Shown in pieces: positions 7,677-17,190 of a stretch of 64,000 bases of DNA (the stretch's first letter is position 1; each line of letters starts with the position of its first letter). The position numbers were made by a program, and so were the translations under genes. The notes under the pieces were generated by a model, which worked only from the letters and a program-made list of their open reading frames with translations, was not told where the DNA came from and ran no database searches. This DNA is from Candidatus Spongiihabitans thiooxidans (lineage in GTDB: Bacteria > Pseudomonadota > Gammaproteobacteria > Arenicellales > Poriferihabitantaceae). The DNA lies in NCBI GenBank assembly GCA_001543005.1, contig LFLB01000022.1:124001-188000 (forward strand). Direction: 5' to 3'.

Positions 7677-8636
7677 ATGAAATTAAAATACTGTTCAGCC
7701 GTAATCACCGCGGCGGTGCTGGGATTGGCAACCAATGCCCCGGCAGCAGTGCCCGAGTCCAACGACCCCATCAGACTGGCCATGAATGAATGGACCGGCC
7801 AGCATATTTCAACCCATGTCGCCGGCGAAATACTCAAACGAATGGGCTATAACGTCGAATATGTGACCGCGGGTTACTATCCGCAAATGCAGGCCATGGA
7901 AGACAACACCATCTCCGCCACCATGGAAATATGGAGCTCGAATATCGGCGAACATTACGACAATGCATTAGCATCCGGAAAGGTTGAGGAGATTGGCGAC
8001 CTCGGTCTTGAGTCGGTCGAATCCTGGTTCTTCAACAATGCAGCCAAGGAAAAATGTCCGGGTCTGCCGGATTACAAAGTCTTGAACGATTGCGTTGCAG
8101 CGTTTGCCAATGCGGAAACCTTTCCCAAGGGGCGCTTTGTCGATTATCCAGCGGATTGGGGAACAACCAATGTCGACCGCATCAAAGCCTGGGGGCTGGA
8201 TTACACTTCGGTGCCGGCCGGCAGTGAAGGTGCCCTAATCGCTGAGATGCAGGGTGCCGAAGCGCGCAATGAGCCGTTGCTGGTGATGTTTTGGTCGCCG
8301 CACTGGATTCATGCGGTGGTGGATTTAACCAACGTCAGCCTGCCTCCCTTTGAAGCTGGTTGCAATGACGACGCCTCAGTCGGGGTCAATCCAAACGCGA
8401 CCTGGGATTGCGACTGGGAGCGCGGCTACATCAAGAAAATGGCTTGGACCGGATTAGTAGATAAGTGGCCGGCAGCGCACAAGTTATTGTCCGCCTATAC
8501 CTTGAGAAATAAAGATCAAATTCCGATGATGAACGCCATCGATCAGGATGGCAAAAAATTGGAAGACGTTGTTTCCGCTTGGGTGGATGCCAATGAAGCA
8601 ACTTGGAAACCCTGGGTGGATGCGGCAATGCGATAA
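7677..8636 (+). CDS. proX: Glycine betaine ABC transporter substrate-binding protein (ProX/OpuAC family)
   Basis: A 319-residue periplasmic binding protein with a signal peptide ending near NAPAA (about residue 24). The mature start DPIRLAMNEWTGQHISTHVA and the tryptophan-rich sequence (EIWSSNIGEHY, MFWSPHWIHAV, WDCDWERGY) fit the OpuAC fold, in which aromatic side chains form a cage for the quaternary ammonium of betaine or a related compound. A good GGAGG lies 11 bases before the ATG. It ends in its own terminator. The matching ATPase and permease genes lie 5.4 kb downstream on the same strand, separated by a restriction-modification insertion, so the transporter locus appears split. Confidence 0.88.
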   Translation: MKLKYCSAVITAAVLGLATNAPAAVPESNDPIRLAMNEWTGQHISTHVAGEILKRMGYNVEYVTAGYYPQMQAMEDNTISATMEIWSSNIGEHYDNALASGKVEEIGDLGLESVESWFFNNAAKEKCPGLPDYKVLNDCVAAFANAETFPKGRFVDYPADWGTTNVDRIKAWGLDYTSVPAGSEGALIAEMQGAEARNEPLLVMFWSPHWIHAVVDLTNVSLPPFEAGCNDDASVGVNPNATWDCDWERGYIKKMAWTGLVDKWPAAHKLLSAYTLRNKDQIPMMNAIDQDGKKLEDVVSAWVDANEATWKPWVDAAMR

Positions 8637-8689
8637 AACTAGATGGCCCTTGATGGTGATATAAAAGTGGCCATATCGATATGATATAA

Positions 8690-8722
8690 AACGGCGGTAT
8701 CTAACGACATCGCCGTTTTTTT
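8690..8722 (+). terminator. Rho-independent terminator after proX
   Basis: The stem AACGGCG pairs with CGCCGTT across a loop of about 16 bases and is followed by a run of seven T. It lies about 55 bases after the stop of proX and would separate proX transcription from the restriction-modification genes. Confidence 0.65.
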
Positions 8723-8752
8723 GATCTTTTAGTTTATCGTGAATAAAAACCA

Positions 8753-10924
8753 ATGAACCTGATACCAACAGGAATCGACAAAGGCTTAATCAGATTTGAT
8801 GGTGGTCGAAAATATATTACCTACGTCCATCAAAACAGACGGCGGAATTACGGTAATCCAGAGGAGCGAGTACAGGCGGAATCATTTCTAAAGCTCATAT
8901 TAGTTTATGGTTACGCGCCAGAGCGGATAGAACAATTTGTACCTGTAAAAATCGGCTCAGATACCAGAGAAGCAGACATTATCGTTTTCAATGATGATGA
9001 ACATACATCCGCCCATATCGTTGTTGAATGTAAAAAAGAGGACGTTTCCGAACTGGAATTTAATCAAGCCATCGCACAGGCGTTCAGCTATGCGGCTACC
9101 GACACGGTCAGAGCCAAGTATTTTTGGGTCGCATCGAAAATCAAGAATGCCTATTTTGAGATACCCGATAAAGAGCCTAAAAAATATCATTCTGTTCCCG
9201 ATGTTCCCCAATATGGCGTTGATAAATTAGCCCAATTTAAATACGCAAAAGGTGGCGGTAAGGTCAACGGGCAAAAACTGTTTGAGCTTGATGCGGTAAC
9301 AGAAGACGAATTAACCAGAAGATTCAAGCAGGCGCACCAAGCTCTTTGGGGAGGCGGAGAACTCAATCCGTCAGAAGCCTTTGACGAACTGGATAAGTTG
9401 ATTTTTTGCAAAATCTGGGATGAACGAAAACCTCGAAAAACAGGCGAGCCTTACCATTTCCAGATATTCAGCGAAAGCACAGAAACTAAAACCAACAAAG
9501 AGCTACAAAAACGCATCAACGCCCTTTACGCCGAAGGGCGCAAGAAAGACCCGGAAGTTTTTAAGGATGATATACGCCTTAATCCTGAAAAACTGCGTAC
9601 TGTTGTTGGTTACCTTGAAAGTATTCATCTTGGCAATACCGATTTGGACAGCAAGGGCAGAGCCTTTGAAACTTTTATGGGTTCATTCTTCCGAGGGGAT
9701 TTTGGGCAATACTTCACTCCTCGCCCGATTGTGAAATTTATCGTTGAAACCTTGCCGATTACCTATGCATCATTAGTTTTGGATACGTCTTGCGGCAGCG
9801 GCGGTTTTTTGCTCCACGCGCTTGATAAAGTCAGGCATCAAGCAGGCGAATACTATCCCGACTTTGAAACGAATATGAACGAAACCAGGATCCATTACAA
9901 GAACTGGCACGATTTTGCAGAAAAGAATCTGTACGGCATAGAAATTAACGAGCAGATCGCCCGAACTGCCAAAATGAACATGATCCTTCACGATGACGGC
10001 CATACCAATGTCATTACGATTGATGGCTTATTGCCGATTGACGATATTAAGGACACAGACGGCAATATCACTCAGCAAGGAATATTTTCGCTTACTAAAA
10101 ATAAAGGATTTCAATATAATCGATTCGATTTTATTATCACCAATCCGCCGTTTGGTTCCAATATCAAACAAACCGAACAGGCTTATATGCACCAATACAG
10201 CTACGCGCTCAAGGATGTTGACTGGCTAAACCCAAAAAGCAGACAAACCGCCAGAGACAATCAAAGCACTGAAATTTTGTTTATTGAGCAATGCCATAAT
10301 TTTTTGCGCGAAGGCGGTTATCTGGCCATCGTTATTCCTGATGGGGTGTTGACTAATTCCAGTTTGCAATATGTCAGGGATGGCATTGAGGAAAAGTTTC
10401 GCATTGTGGCGGTGGTATCCATGCCGCAAACGGCATTTCAGGCAACCGGCGCCGGAGTTAAAAGCTCAGTGCTGTTTTTGAAAAAACACTCGGCAGAAAC
10501 TACCGAACAAATACAAAACCAGAAAACAGCACTGCAAGACAGCATCAAGGCAGATAACGGCTACTTAAAACAACTGCAAAAAATTGACAACGCGAAAAAG
10601 CAACACCTCCAAGCGTTAAAAGGCTTTGATAACGCGGATGGTTTAGAGGGCAAAGCACTGACACAATCAGACACTTACAAGGAATGGAAAAAAGAAGTCA
10701 ATGCAGAATACAAGGAAAAAGTGGATGCGCTCAAGGAAACTTTGAGCGAACAGTATTTAGAGCAGAAACAGAAACGGCTGGACGATTACCCTATCTTCAT
10801 GGCAATCGCCGAAGACATCGGCTACGACGCAACAGGAAAGCCAACTAACAATAACGAACTTGATGCTATCGGCATAGATCTTGCTCGGTTTATTGAAGCG
10901 ATTGAAGCGGAGCAACATTTATGA
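8753..10924 (+). CDS. Fused HsdR_N nuclease domain and type I-like N6-adenine DNA methyltransferase
   Basis: A 723-residue protein in two parts. Residues 1-160 resemble the HsdR N-terminal nuclease domain, with a PD-(D/E)xK core seen as READIIVFND and IVVECKK (near residues 73-96). Residues 280-590 are an HsdM-type methyltransferase: AdoMet motif I LDTSCGSGGFLL near 343 and catalytic NPPF in IITNPPFGS near 460. The C-terminal 150 residues are a charged coiled coil. It should methylate adenine in a site chosen by the downstream specificity subunit and may cut unmodified DNA. No ATP-dependent HsdR translocase is present, so the layout recalls BcgI-like type IIB enzymes more than classic type I. 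The stop overlaps the next start as ATGA. Confidence 0.85.
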   Translation: MNLIPTGIDKGLIRFDGGRKYITYVHQNRRRNYGNPEERVQAESFLKLILVYGYAPERIEQFVPVKIGSDTREADIIVFNDDEHTSAHIVVECKKEDVSELEFNQAIAQAFSYAATDTVRAKYFWVASKIKNAYFEIPDKEPKKYHSVPDVPQYGVDKLAQFKYAKGGGKVNGQKLFELDAVTEDELTRRFKQAHQALWGGGELNPSEAFDELDKLIFCKIWDERKPRKTGEPYHFQIFSESTETKTNKELQKRINALYAEGRKKDPEVFKDDIRLNPEKLRTVVGYLESIHLGNTDLDSKGRAFETFMGSFFRGDFGQYFTPRPIVKFIVETLPITYASLVLDTSCGSGGFLLHALDKVRHQAGEYYPDFETNMNETRIHYKNWHDFAEKNLYGIEINEQIARTAKMNMILHDDGHTNVITIDGLLPIDDIKDTDGNITQQGIFSLTKNKGFQYNRFDFIITNPPFGSNIKQTEQAYMHQYSYALKDVDWLNPKSRQTARDNQSTEILFIEQCHNFLREGGYLAIVIPDGVLTNSSLQYVRDGIEEKFRIVAVVSMPQTAFQATGAGVKSSVLFLKKHSAETTEQIQNQKTALQDSIKADNGYLKQLQKIDNAKKQHLQALKGFDNADGLEGKALTQSDTYKEWKKEVNAEYKEKVDALKETLSEQYLEQKQKRLDDYPIFMAIAEDIGYDATGKPTNNNELDAIGIDLARFIEAIEAEQHL

Positions 10925-11775
10925 AAAACGAACTTGTACAAGCTTTCACTCACAGCTTTAACGATCATTCTCAGACCACTGACAGTGGCATTGAATTTTG
11001 GTTTGCCCGCGATTTACAACACTTATTAGGATACGCTGAATGGCGTAACTTTAACCAAGTGATTACCAAAGCAAAGATTTCATGCGAGGCCACGCAAAAC
11101 ACGGTTCCCGACCATTTTGTTGAGGTCAACAAAATGGTCGTGCTTGGCTCTGGCAGCGAAAGAAAAATACAGGATATGATGCTTACCCGCTATGCCTGTT
11201 ATTTGATTGCCCAAAATGGCAATCCCAAAAAAGATGCTATCGCATTTGCTCAAAATTACTTTGCTCTCCAAACTCGCAAACTGGAACTCATTGAGCAGCG
11301 TTTAGAAAACTTAGAACGTCTGCAAGCAAGACAAAAACTAACTCATTCTGAAAAAGAACTGTCTGAATTGATTTTCGAACACACTCGAAGTGATCGTAAT
11401 TTCGGCATTATACGCAGCAAAGGCGATACCGCACTGTTTGGCGGTAGCAGCACCCAAGAAATGAAAAATAAATTACAAGTACCGAAAAATAGAGCATTAG
11501 TCGATTTTCTGCCAGCCATTACTATCAAGGCAAAAGATTTTTCTACCGAGATTACCGTGTTTAGTACCAAAGCCCATCGACTCATTACCGAACATCAAAT
11601 AACAGAAGAGCATATTAAAAACAATCAAAGCGTGCGTAGTATTTTGTTAGAGCGTGGCATAAAACCAGAAGACTTACCGCCAGAGGAAGACATAAAAAAG
11701 ATGGAACGGCGGTTATTGGCAGGAGACAAGAAAATTAGCAAAAATCCAGACAAATTGAAAACCTCCAATGAATAA
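10921..11775 (+). CDS. DinD-like DNA-damage-inducible protein
   Basis: A 284-residue protein similar to DinD, with an N-terminal BRO-like half: FWFARDLQHLLGYAEWRNF (residues 27-45) and the helix MMLTRYACYLIAQNGNPKK near residues 82-100. The C-terminal half has a long helical stretch and IFEHTRSDRNFGIIRSKGD. In E. coli DinD inhibits RecA strand exchange; homologues often sit inside type I restriction operons. Here it overlaps both the methylase (four bases) and the specificity subunit (eight bases), so all three are translationally coupled. It may tune repair or damage signalling when restriction is active; that role is inference. Confidence 0.82.
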   Translation: MKNELVQAFTHSFNDHSQTTDSGIEFWFARDLQHLLGYAEWRNFNQVITKAKISCEATQNTVPDHFVEVNKMVVLGSGSERKIQDMMLTRYACYLIAQNGNPKKDAIAFAQNYFALQTRKLELIEQRLENLERLQARQKLTHSEKELSELIFEHTRSDRNFGIIRSKGDTALFGGSSTQEMKNKLQVPKNRALVDFLPAITIKAKDFSTEITVFSTKAHRLITEHQITEEHIKNNQSVRSILLERGIKPEDLPPEEDIKKMERRLLAGDKKISKNPDKLKTSNE

Positions 11776-13183
11776 TTTTCAGATTTCGCCAGAAGTGGAT
11801 AGAAATAAGGTGTTTCTGATCAATCGCAGTGAGTTGGCAGGGAGAATTGATGCTAACACGCATCACCCTGAACGAAGAGATGCTATTGCACAAATCAAGC
11901 GATCTACTTTTCGTGTTGAAAAACTAGGATTTATTACATCATTTTCCAAAAACATAGTAACAACAATTGTTGTTACCGATATTTATGTCGGATTAGAAAA
12001 TATAGAAAGCAATACAGGCATTTTTATTGACTCCAACAGAAAAGAGAGCATATGCAGTGCATTGTCTTTCAAAACCGGACAAGTTCTCTTTCCAAAGCTA
12101 AGACCCTATTTAAACAAAGTATTTTATGCGAATTTTGACGGGATTTGTTCAACAGAATTTCATATTTTAGACGGTGAAAAGATAGACAATAGATACTTAT
12201 TTTATTTTTTAGGACTAGATATTATTGTGAAGCAAACGTCTTTGTTAATGTCGGGTAATACACTTCCTAGATTACAAACGGAAGATATAAAAAATCTATT
12301 AATCCCCATCCCTCCTAAAGAAACCCAACTTACAATTGTCGCTAAAATGGATGCCGCCTACGCCAACAAGAAACAAAAAGAAACAGAGGCACAGCGGTTA
12401 CTGGATAGCATTGATGATTATCTTTTAGGAGAATTGGGAATTGAACTGCCAGCACGAGAAGAAAACACCCTGCAAAGCCGAATGTTTACACGGCGGTTGA
12501 GCGAGGTATCGGGCGGGCGATTTGATCCTGATTATTTTCAAGAATATTACAGAGAAATACAACAGTCATTACATAACGGGCAGTTCTCATGCAAAGCAAT
12601 AAAAAATGTGGCTGATTTAGTTATCAATGGCAACACGCCTGCAAGCAATGACTATTCTGACAAAGAAACTAATTATCCAATTATCAAGGTAAAGAGCTAC
12701 CAAGGGGATTTTATCTCACTAGAAAAGCTAGACTTTACCAAAGAGAAGAAAATTAAACGGGCTAAAAAGCATGATATTTTCCTGCTATCAGCAGCACATC
12801 AAGCAAGCTATGTTGGGCGATTTATGAAGTATTTGGATAGAGAGCCATTAGAAAATTCGTCATTTGTGGGTGAGCTAATTTGTATTCGAGCTAATAAATC
12901 TACTTGTAATCCTATGTATTTATTCTCACTGTTAAATTCGGAACCGTACAAGATTTTATTAAACAGAGAAAAAACAGGCCAAACATCGCATATATATCCA
13001 ACCGATATTAAGCATATTAAAATTCCAATCCCACCGTTAGAAAAACAAACCGAAATCGCCAATCACATTACCAAAATCCGCAACCAAGCAAAGCAACTCC
13101 AACAACAAGCCAAAACTGAATTAGATCAAGCCAAAAAAGAAGTGGAAGCAATGATTTTAGGTGACGGTGAAAGCAAGGTATGA
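11768..13183 (+). CDS. Type I-like restriction-modification specificity subunit (HsdS)
   Basis: A 471-residue protein with two target-recognition domains, each followed by a conserved helix. The first ends at LLIPIPPKETQLTIVAKMDA, the second at IKIPIPPLEKQTEIANHITK; these paired IPxPPxExQ signatures are diagnostic of HsdS. Each half should read one half of a bipartite DNA site, and the helices set the spacing. The C-terminal helix QAKQLQQQAKTELDQAKKEV probably docks on the methylase. It overlaps the DinD-like gene by eight bases. The recognition sequence cannot be predicted here. Confidence 0.88.
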   Translation: MNNFQISPEVDRNKVFLINRSELAGRIDANTHHPERRDAIAQIKRSTFRVEKLGFITSFSKNIVTTIVVTDIYVGLENIESNTGIFIDSNRKESICSALSFKTGQVLFPKLRPYLNKVFYANFDGICSTEFHILDGEKIDNRYLFYFLGLDIIVKQTSLLMSGNTLPRLQTEDIKNLLIPIPPKETQLTIVAKMDAAYANKKQKETEAQRLLDSIDDYLLGELGIELPAREENTLQSRMFTRRLSEVSGGRFDPDYFQEYYREIQQSLHNGQFSCKAIKNVADLVINGNTPASNDYSDKETNYPIIKVKSYQGDFISLEKLDFTKEKKIKRAKKHDIFLLSAAHQASYVGRFMKYLDREPLENSSFVGELICIRANKSTCNPMYLFSLLNSEPYKILLNREKTGQTSHIYPTDIKHIKIPIPPLEKQTEIANHITKIRNQAKQLQQQAKTELDQAKKEVEAMILGDGESKV

Positions 13184-13267
13184 GTAAAGTGTTGTGCTGA
13201 GAAGTCTATACTTCGGTCTTTATGATTACTGATCTGGATTTTTCTCAACAAACCAAAGGCAAAAAAG

Positions 13268-13882
13268 ATGGAAGATAAAGTACAAAACGTAATCTTGGAA
13301 TCAAAGGAAATAACTCGCTGGATAGACTCAAAGATAGAGAATCTTCAAGTAAATTCTGTGCCAAGAGAAAGAATATCTGGCGCGTGCTTTTCTGTTGCTC
13401 TTGAGTATCACTACTCAATCGTGTTGCTTATATCTAATGGTTTAACTGGTTCTGCATGCTCGCTTCTCAGGCCTCTATTTGAAGCCTTTATTCGAGGTGT
13501 CTGGATACAACATAAAGCTACCGATGAAGAAGTTGATAAATTTATAGAGAAAGACACCATAAATAAGTTGTTTGATGAGTTGGTTAAGGAAGTCGAAACT
13601 GTTCCTGGTTATGATACGGGAGTGTTAATCGAAGCGAAAGAGAAGACTTGGAAAGCCCTGAATAGCTATGTGCATGGCGGTTTTTCGCAAATCAAGAGAA
13701 GAAATACTGCTGATTCTATTGAACCAAATTATAGCGATGAAGAGAAAGTTGAGGCACTCAAAGGTGCAAGCGCCTATGGATTGCTTTCTTTCTTTGGCAT
13801 GGCAGGACTTGCAAATAATTTTGAGCTCCAAAAAAGAATCCATGCCAAGATTGTTGAATTCTCTAACCCGCCCAGACCGTAA
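13268..13882 (+). CDS. Conserved protein of unknown function (DUF6988/DUF5677-like)
   Basis: A 204-residue, mostly helical protein without signal peptide or membrane span. Visible conserved-looking blocks are ARPLFEAFIRGVWIQ-like SLLRPLFEAFIRGVWI and WKALNSYVHGGFSQI. Related proteins with an R-x-LFE-x-hxRG block and a (Y/H)xHGG block are annotated as DUF5677- or DUF6988-like and are common in accessory and defence regions. I do not know the function. It lies 84 bases after the specificity subunit on the same strand and closes the insertion between proX and proV. It may be a defence accessory or an unrelated passenger. Confidence 0.6.
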   Translation: MEDKVQNVILESKEITRWIDSKIENLQVNSVPRERISGACFSVALEYHYSIVLLISNGLTGSACSLLRPLFEAFIRGVWIQHKATDEEVDKFIEKDTINKLFDELVKEVETVPGYDTGVLIEAKEKTWKALNSYVHGGFSQIKRRNTADSIEPNYSDEEKVEALKGASAYGLLSFFGMAGLANNFELQKRIHAKIVEFSNPPRP

Positions 13883-14023
13883 ACCCATACTTCCCACGCT
13901 CGCTTTGGTTGGACCGCCCAATGTCGGCAGGGACACCCTGCAAGGCTTTCTTCAAGGCAAAGACTTCGCTGACTGGTACACTTGCAAGTTGAATCGGCGT
14001 ATGATGTCGATCATGTCAATGTG
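13881..14023 (+). pseudogene. Possible scrap of a GTPase gene (Der N-terminus-like)
   Basis: One frame between the unknown gene and proV reads KPILPTLALVGPPNVGRDTL. Apart from the altered loop this matches the P-loop start of the GTPase Der (LPTLALVGRPNVGKSTL). The lysine and serine needed for nucleotide binding are changed to R and D, and similarity fades after about 20 codons, so nothing functional is encoded. It may be a remnant carried at the edge of the insertion. The match is short and could be chance. Confidence 0.3.
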
Positions 14024-14056
14024 ATTATTGCGTAAAACAACACCAGGTAGCGTTCA

Positions 14057-15108
<1,052 letters not shown>

Positions 15109-15109
<1 letters not shown>

Positions 15110-17190
15110 TGCGAGCCAAATTATTCAGGCAGAATTACCACGGCATTGTGCCCTGGATCGCGGTTATCCTGATAACTTGTGTGTGCCTGCTTTTGCGCGA
15201 CCAGGTTTCCTGGCTGGTTACGCTACCCGTTGAACTGATTATTCCGGTCGCGGATTGGATCAATGTTTTTATGGACTGGTTCATCGGCGCGTTCAAGTGG
15301 TTATTTCGCTCCTTTAACTGGTTGTTGTCGTGGCCCATGGCCGGCGCTCAAGGACTATTACAGTGGCTTCCCTGGCCCGCAACCATGGCAGGTTTTTGCG
15401 TGCTTGCTTACGTTTCTTCAGGTTGGCGATTGTCGCTGTTCACCGGGCTTGCGCTGTTCTATATGGTGTTCACGGGCTATTGGCTGCCGAGCATGAATAC
15501 GCTCGGCATCGTATTCGTATCCATTCCCCTGGCTATTGCAGCGGGTTTGGTGCTCGCTGTCGGCGCGTATAAATCCGCGCGCATCAATAAAATCGTCCAG
15601 CCGATATTGGATTTGATGCAGGCCGTGCCGACTTTCGCCTACCTGATTCCCATCCTGTTGTTGTTCGGTTTCGGGCCGGTGGTGGGCGTGGTCGCCAGCG
15701 CCATCTACGCTTGTCCACCGATGGTGCGCAACACCATCCTTGGGCTGCAAAAAGTACCGAGCGATGTGCTTGAATCCGGCATCATGTCCGGTTCCACTAA
15801 ACGGCAGCTTTTTTGGTGGGTGCAAATACCGAGCGCGTTGCCCAATATCATGGTCGGGGTAAACCAGACCACCATGGCGGCACTGAGCATGGTAATCATT
15901 GCCGCCATCATCGGCGGCTCCGCCGATATAGGCTGGGAGGTACTCAGCACCATGCGCAAGGCGCAGTTTGGCCAAAGTTTATTGGCCGGCACTGTCATCG
16001 CATTGATCGCGATGGTGCTGGACCGAATAAGCCGGGGCTTTATCGATAGAACGCGAGCCGTTGAGCGACAACATCTTAGCCGGGCAGAAAGATTAAAACC
16101 CTGGCTATCCGCTTTTGGTTTGATGGTGATTTTCACCTTGCTTTCGTTATTCATACCGACACTGCGTGTTTTTCCGGAAGCGTGGATTTTTTATCCTGCG
16201 GATTCCATTAATGATGGCTTGCGCTTCATAACCGCCAATTATTCGAACCTCACAGACGCCTTCAAGGAAACCATATTCTTTTATTACCTGTTGCCGCTTA
16301 AAATTGGTTTCGCCAAAGCAATATCGCCGTTTTCCTGGGGGTTTTCACTGACTCCGGCAATGATATCGGGGTATGCTGTTGTGCTGACCGCTCTGGTGGG
16401 TTGGTTATTTGTCAGACGCAGTTGGCAGTCTGCTGTTATGGTTGTCATCATCGGCGGACTGCTCTACTTTGGAATTACCGCAATCCCATGGATAGCGTTT
16501 GTATTGGTGGTAACCTTATTGGCTTGGCAGGTCGGCGGGCTTCAGGTTGCAGCACTATCGTTATTTGGCTGGCTGTTCATGTTGTTTTCCGGGGTCTGGC
16601 CGCAGGCGATGTTGTCGGTGTATATGTGTCTGGCGGCGGTGATCGTATGCTTGCTGATCGGCGGCGGGCTGGGAATCTGGGCGAGCGGCAATCAAGCGGT
16701 GTCGAATTTTTTGCGCCCGATTAACGACACCCTGCAAAGCATGCCGTTGTTCGTCATCTTGATTCCGTTCTTGATGTTTTTTCAAATCGGCGAGTTCACT
16801 TCCTTTTTAGCAATCATCGCCTATGCCATCGTCCCGACAATTCGATATACCGAACACGGTTTGCGCAATGTGCCTCAGGATACTGTGGAGGCGGCGCAGT
16901 CTATGGGCTGCACCAAGCGGCAATTATTGTGGGCCGTGAAAATGCCGCTGGCGATTCCGGAAGTTATGCTCGGGCTCAATCAAACGATATTATTTGCGCT
17001 GGCGATGCTGGTCATCACCGCACTGGTCGGCAGCAAAGGATTGGGGCAATCGGTCTATATCGCGCTGAGTAGCGCAAACGCAGGCCAAGGCATGGTTGCC
17101 GGTTTGAGTATGGCACTGATTGCCATCATCGCCGACCGCATTATTCAATCGTGGAGTAAAAAACGGAAACAAGCGTTGGGTTTGCTGTAA
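15109..17190 (+). CDS. proW: Double-length glycine betaine ABC transporter permease
   Basis: A 693-residue inner-membrane protein that is two ProW-like permeases in tandem. Each half has a membrane permease domain with its own coupling loop: VLESGIMSGSTKRQLFWWVQ in the first and VEAAQSMGCTKRQLLWAVKM in the second, preceded by AVPTFAYLIPILLLFG and SMPLFVILIPFLMFF. Typical ProW has one such domain and works as a dimer, so this protein probably forms the whole membrane pore alone with two ProV subunits. It starts in the TAATG overlap after proV. A Rieske oxygenase gene follows 84 bases downstream. Confidence 0.9.

Follow-up and report, generated by a model that had tools for sequence, protein, structure and literature searches.

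A DinD gene as apparent cargo between the methylase and specificity genes of a putative type IIB-like restriction-modification operon

Once DNA has been restricted, its fate depends mostly on general repair enzymes. The described restriction-modification (R-M) systems closest to the one presented here are those of type IIB (BsaXI/BcgI). Alanine mutants of BsaXI residues E73, D90, E105 and K107 are inactive, and a structural element termed the paddle is limited to long BsaXI-like proteins (PMC11997821). The literature found on DinD together with R-M is scarce, consisting of one mobile-element case and of Btr190I from Bibersteinia trehalosi, in which a dinD-hsdS fusion works as the specificity subunit (PMC4996451). 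E. coli DinD is reported to inhibit post-synaptic RecA filaments (Uranga 2011, cited in PMC10602874). On the E. coli chromosome, dinD usually stands by itself.

The operon analyzed here belongs to Candidatus Spongiihabitans thiooxidans and lies in a window of 64,000 nucleotides, the whole stretch of DNA that was studied. A first-pass annotation, made from the sequence alone, had recognized at 8753-13183 a nuclease fused to a methylase, a DinD-like gene overlapping both its neighbors, and an HsdS gene. ORF calls, Pfam and the NF008573 family model bear out this assignment, and both overlaps are present. The features, with their basis in brackets, are the following:

8688..8722, plus strand: hairpin resembling a terminator, with a T-run behind it, shortly before the RM start (computed folding)
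8753..10924, plus strand: RM subunit, 723 amino acids (ORF call, Pfam, alignment, structure model)
10921..10924, plus strand: ATGA stop/start overlap of RM and DinD, 4 nt (sequence)
10921..11775, plus strand: DinD, 284 amino acids (ORF call, Pfam, NF008573 family model)
11768..11775, plus strand: overlap of DinD and HsdS, 8 nt (sequence)
11768..13183, plus strand: HsdS specificity subunit, 471 amino acids, with two target-recognition domains (ORF call, Pfam)
13268-13882, plus strand: gene of a DUF6988/DUF5677 protein, PADLOC defence candidate PDC-S52 (domain search)

The RM and DinD genes are not chance ORFs: RM has 80 relatives at 56-85% identity, and 38 invariant columns are common to 31 aligned DinD proteins. 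The GC content of the island is low (0.43 for RM, 0.40 for DinD and 0.36 for HsdS) as compared to 0.53 in the flanking genes, which we take, from a reading of their sequences, to be proX, proV and proW. As the island separates the proX-like from the proVW-like genes of one betaine-type transporter (7677-17190), this transporter operon may have been split. The DUF6988/DUF5677 gene starts 85 bases 3' of hsdS and probably belongs to the island, since its GC content is equally low. The hairpin is either the end of the proX-like gene or the leader of the RM operon. No clear ribosome-binding site for hsdS is visible by eye at the DinD-HsdS overlap, which, together with the 8-nt overlap itself, suggests translational coupling of the two genes.

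The RM subunit is composed of a PD-(D/E)xK nuclease head (~36-152), followed by a helical connector and an N6-adenine methylase; Pfam identifies HSDR_N_2 at 36-152 and N6_Mtase at 299-590. The nuclease motif residues are D75, E92, K94 and Q109xxxY113, and the methylase motifs are DTSCGSGG (344-351) and NPPF (464-467). The best solved relative is type IIB RM.BsaXI, and the homology extends from the nuclease head almost to the C-terminus: phmmer aligns the two proteins over residues 25-587, together with a motif at 673-698 (E 1.3e-46). With the AlphaFold model of RM (mean pLDDT 84), BsaXI is the best Foldseek match (4e-31) and reaches a Z of 27-28 in VIA-align, type I M subunits coming next at ~22. 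D75, E92 and K94 align with BsaXI D90, E105 and K107, while the counterpart of BsaXI E73 is unsure. The first-pass annotation had seen the type I nuclease head as a departure from the type IIB layout. This point has to be abandoned: RM.BsaXI possesses the same head, which therefore does not set the window enzyme apart. Being ~190 amino acids shorter (723 instead of 916), the window RM probably lacks the BsaXI paddle. HsdS contains two Methylase_S stretches (Pfam), and S.BsaXI is among its PDB matches.

As in the type IIB enzymes BsaXI and BcgI, nuclease and N6-methylase share one chain, the PD-(D/E)xK residues are intact, and a separate subunit with two target-recognition domains provides specificity. 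The HsdR motor-nuclease subunit characteristic of type I is absent from the island, as is any other motor gene. The 80 RM relatives, originating from many phyla, were compared together with flanks of at most 8 kb in either direction; an HsdR profile search finds no ATP-dependent motor within this distance of any of them, and as the profile was built from few seeds (the HsdR proteins of the host genome), a divergent motor could be missed. In most of these relatives S follows M directly, usually overlapping it, and four of the 80 (L057, L058, L059 and L074) are longer, have no separate S and were read as M-S fusions, the S part being confirmed by blast in L059. Only three plasmid homologues of RM were found by a plasmid search, all weak. 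Membership of MADS was rejected, the mad2 and mad5 scores (315 and 81 bits) being under the curated cut-offs (720 and 400 bits).

These data bear on the possibility that RM is the modification subunit of a type I system served by HsdR in trans, its nuclease head being vestigial. PADLOC indeed calls the RM family a Type I methyltransferase, and HsdR genes are present elsewhere in the host genome, on contigs C7, C16, C17 and C22. However, those on C7, C16 and C17, hence most of them, have their own M and/or S nearby, the best structural match of RM is BsaXI, and M-S fusions exist in the family. Above all, D75, E92, K94, Q109 and Y113 (the last two forming the QxxxY motif) are invariant in 80/80 RM family sequences, and no motor is found near any relative; on these two grounds the reading was discarded as very improbable. 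Loss of the PD-(D/E)xK residues and an hsdR gene acting in trans were precisely the findings that the first-pass annotation had named as fatal to its proposal; the absence of an HsdR motor and the likeness to a type IIB layout that it had put forward both stand, the latter as a motor-free RM and S pair whose RM is an end-to-end homologue of RM.BsaXI. On this sequence evidence, the window enzyme appears to belong to a broad, motor-free type IIB-like R-M family.

An insert is found between M and S in about 20 of the 80 RM relatives. The cargo is diverse:

protein of 476-527 amino acids with a nucleoside-deoxyribosyltransferase/TIR-like C-terminal part, 10 loci: L055, L079, L103, L104, L107, L108, L118, L122, L125, L131
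RhuM, 3 loci: L075, L092, L097
another Bro-N protein, PADLOC group PDC-S13, 2 loci
IS200-like transposase, 2 loci: L078, L102
AlbA, 1 locus
PDDEXK_3 protein, 1 locus
DinD, 1 locus: L123

The methylase/specificity junction is a recurrent insertion slot, and the ~500-residue family looks like an uncharacterised R-M-linked effector. To note, the host genome itself contains a second HSDR_N-N6_Mtase gene, on contig C30 (L278 2665-7288, minus strand), with a RhuM gene between M and S.

The closest relatives of the window RM (78-85% identical) have no DinD. Within its clade on the RM tree, the window harbors DinD and L055 the ~500-residue protein, while L054 and L056 carry nothing; in L053, 85% identical, M is frameshifted and S overlaps M by ATGA. 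In the three cargo-free loci (L053, L054 and L056), M is joined directly to S by an ATGA-kind overlap, and as M and S have both retained their adjoining ends at the window joint, DinD entered cleanly. The DinD-bearing RM genes (the window, L043 and L123) fall into three distinct lineages of the RM tree; in L043, S is reduced to a short start behind DinD, and an Mrr nuclease gene comes next. Since the closest relatives do without it, DinD is an optional and recently acquired cargo of the window operon. The first-pass view of three coupled genes therefore holds for the overlaps, but not for an obligatory unit.

The window DinD scores 356.8 bits against NF008573 (family cut-off 242) and comprises a Bro-N domain (20-109), a long helix (105-155) and a helical C-terminal domain. 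Full-length genes over the family cut-off were surveyed in two whole-genome samples, 369 of the class and 398 of the phylum. Among the 32 distinct genes retrieved, 19 have R-M genes on one or both sides, as judged by reading the neighborhoods by eye: 11 with type I, five in or adjoining type III mod/res operons (L038, L044, L165, L169 and L172), two with IIB-like systems and one with a decayed type I (L176). For a random gene, the expected share in R-M operons is well below 1%, a figure that we estimated and did not compute. The 13 remaining chromosomal genes were not seen adjoining R-M genes; one neighbors a type I-F Cas3 (L037) and others stand by nothing telling. Among viral contigs with DinD, a recognised R-M gene is nearby in 6/80 and none in 74/80. 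Because of these viral and chromosomal genes without R-M neighbors, the basic job of DinD does not require R-M. Mapping the labels type I, type III, IIB and none onto the DinD tree takes 12 changes; DinD has thus moved among R-M systems repeatedly.

Several individual loci are worth describing. One type I operon contains both DinD and RhuM, each between M and S (L034 3750-8693, minus strand). A DinD gene adjoins a Wadjet JetA-like DUF3375 gene (L035 4146-6855, minus strand), and a full-length dinD separates ureC from ureE in a urease operon (L042 4095-7387). On contig C7 of the host genome, a fragment of DinD lies close to an HsdR gene (L049 12783-13085, minus strand); it may be what is left of a further embedded dinD.

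The survey first bears on whether dinD is a mere passenger, the M-S junction being a tolerant landing site for mobile genes without any functional tie to restriction. IS200-like transposases do occupy the same slot (L078 and L102), and many viral contigs carry DinD without R-M. Yet the 19/32 association is far above what a random gene would give, covers three R-M types and several positions, and goes with reading frames that are kept and overlapping. The passenger reading is weakened by this association, even if DinD also travels without R-M, and we regard it as unlikely. Still less probable is a regulator of transcription, assembly or restriction alleviation, whose Bro-N domain would delay or limit the nuclease, for example on entering a new host. 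The Bro-N domain is there, and with dinD placed between RM and S in overlapping frames, S output may depend on DinD translation. However, the 78-85% identical relatives with a direct M-S overlap manage without DinD, and it is less likely that a single regulator would serve enzymes of types I, III and IIB.

A third possibility is that DinD is an R-M guardian or effector, which the RM-S complex would keep silent until a phage inhibits restriction; PrrC behaves in this way with EcoPrrI. The R-M guardian concept is established (PMC12707154), and the company kept by DinD is suggestive: the same slot holds RhuM, the deoxyribosyltransferase/TIR-like ~500-residue protein, AlbA and PDDEXK_3 proteins, and PrrC-like AAA_13 genes adjoin DinD in L039 and L040. 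The DinD-HsdS fusion of Btr190I demonstrates physical association in one system (PMC4996451). DinD is moreover PADLOC defence candidate PDC-S13, so that its association with defence is not wholly new. Conversely, Pfam finds only Bro-N in DinD and no toxic or catalytic domain, DinD occurs with unrelated R-M types, and the chromosomal E. coli gene stands alone. A guardian role thus keeps a minor but real share of our credence.

Control by the SOS response was considered and rejected for the window operon. E. coli dinD has the LexA box CTGTATATAAATACAG upstream, whereas no such box (CTGT-N8-ACAG) lies near the window operon; one-mismatch LexA-like matches in the 64,000-nt window are at chance level (15 versus 14.2 expected), none of them near the operon. 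No LexA box was found within 300 bases upstream of the R-M-embedded DinD genes, the sole one among the surveyed genes belonging to a stand-alone gene (L159). The host genome yields no LexA match over the cut-off, though recA is present, and the stretch read upstream of recA contains no LexA box; the host SOS system may be absent or divergent. As neither the box nor a canonical LexA was found, the label "DNA damage-inducible" is not transferable to the window DinD. The epithet "RecA-modulating" given in the first-pass annotation fares no better, its source being E. coli DinD, with which the window protein shares only about 36% identity; the window-type and E. coli-type proteins form two deep groups on the DinD tree. 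The idea that E. coli dinD is the remnant of a type III operon was dropped, a long match with the methylase occurring in only 2/5,426 genomes.

The predicted structure of DinD points elsewhere. A model was built from a 42-sequence alignment of the window protein with proteins from related loci and viral contigs (pLDDT 90.5), and its sole convincing Foldseek match is DdrC of Deinococcus radiodurans (8.6e-6). DdrC is a Deinococcus damage-response protein that binds and stabilises DNA breaks; we know of no tie between it and R-M. VIA-align superimposes 200 residues (model 9-246) with a Z of 14.2, a value that helical models can reach by chance, the gap to the next unrelated chain (5.7) being wide here. 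The rmsd is large (9.7), the domains being shifted against each other. Two DinD sequence profiles, not fully independent as their alignments have members in common, rank DdrC first through the C-terminal part (E 0.007 and 0.01); single DinD sequences retrieve nothing from the PDB with phmmer, DdrC being found only by profiles and fold search. DinD is thus predicted to adopt a DdrC-like fold over most of its chain. The sequence link is weak and fold kinship is no proof of a common function, but the predicted fold makes a link of DinD to break handling plausible.

Altogether, the reading that we favor, with measured confidence, is that of a type IIB-like R-M system with DinD as an optional, DdrC-like cargo, most likely binding the ends or nicks made by restriction. 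By analogy with BsaXI, RM and S probably form an (RM)2S complex. HsdS would recognise a bipartite site, at which the complex would methylate adenine on both strands; unmodified DNA would be cut beside the site, presumably on both sides, without ATP-driven translocation. DinD, made in the same translational chain, would be produced next to S, bind the resulting ends or nicks, and hold them and/or block their RecA-dependent rejoining. As a result, cut invading DNA would stay dead, or self-inflicted cuts would be contained. The presence of DinD in type I, III and IIB operons suggests that its target is the broken DNA that all of them produce and not any single enzyme, and the working dinD-hsdS fusion indicates that DinD can ride on the specificity subunit (PMC4996451). 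A bolder proposal, which we make tentatively, is that DinD is a mobile general restriction subunit that sits beside HsdS, captures ends and blocks recombinational repair, making type I, III and IIB cuts irreversible. Against such cooperation, close RM relatives lack DinD, and its position could reflect a tolerant insertion slot. If the proposal is true, the recurrence of a break-binding protein in three R-M types would imply that restriction systems supply an end-handling factor of their own, and DinD, an SOS gene of unclear purpose, would gain a natural context. As far as could be checked, three points are new: the view of the M-S junction as a cargo slot, how often DinD occurs in R-M operons of several types, and its DdrC-like fold.

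Compared with known systems, the window operon is closest to BsaXI (PDB IDs 8w0p, 8w2p and 8w2q), with which it shares the nuclease-connector-methylase chain, a separate two-domain S, the catalytic D, E and K, and a conserved DYPIFMA motif near the end of RM. It differs by the size of RM (723 instead of 916 amino acids), by an identity of about 22-29% and by the extra gene between RM and S. In terms of gene organisation, BcgI-like systems such as Btr190ORF12260P are likewise two-gene RM and S systems without a motor, but DinD is not reported for them. With the PrrC/EcoPrrI pair, the window has in common an accessory gene inside an R-M operon; PrrC, however, is an anticodon nuclease, and DinD has no such domain. 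DdrC (PDB IDs 7udi, 7qvb and 8u0g) resembles the predicted DinD in fold over 200 residues and by a weak colinear sequence match to its C-terminal part, with an identity of 13-15%. E. coli DinD belongs to the same NF008573 family and has the same domain layout, but lies on the other deep branch of the tree. Finally, in Btr190I as in the window, DinD is physically tied to the specificity gene, there in an active methylation system (PMC4996451); Btr190I is a type I system with a separate HsdR, and its fusion takes the place of the overlap seen in the window.
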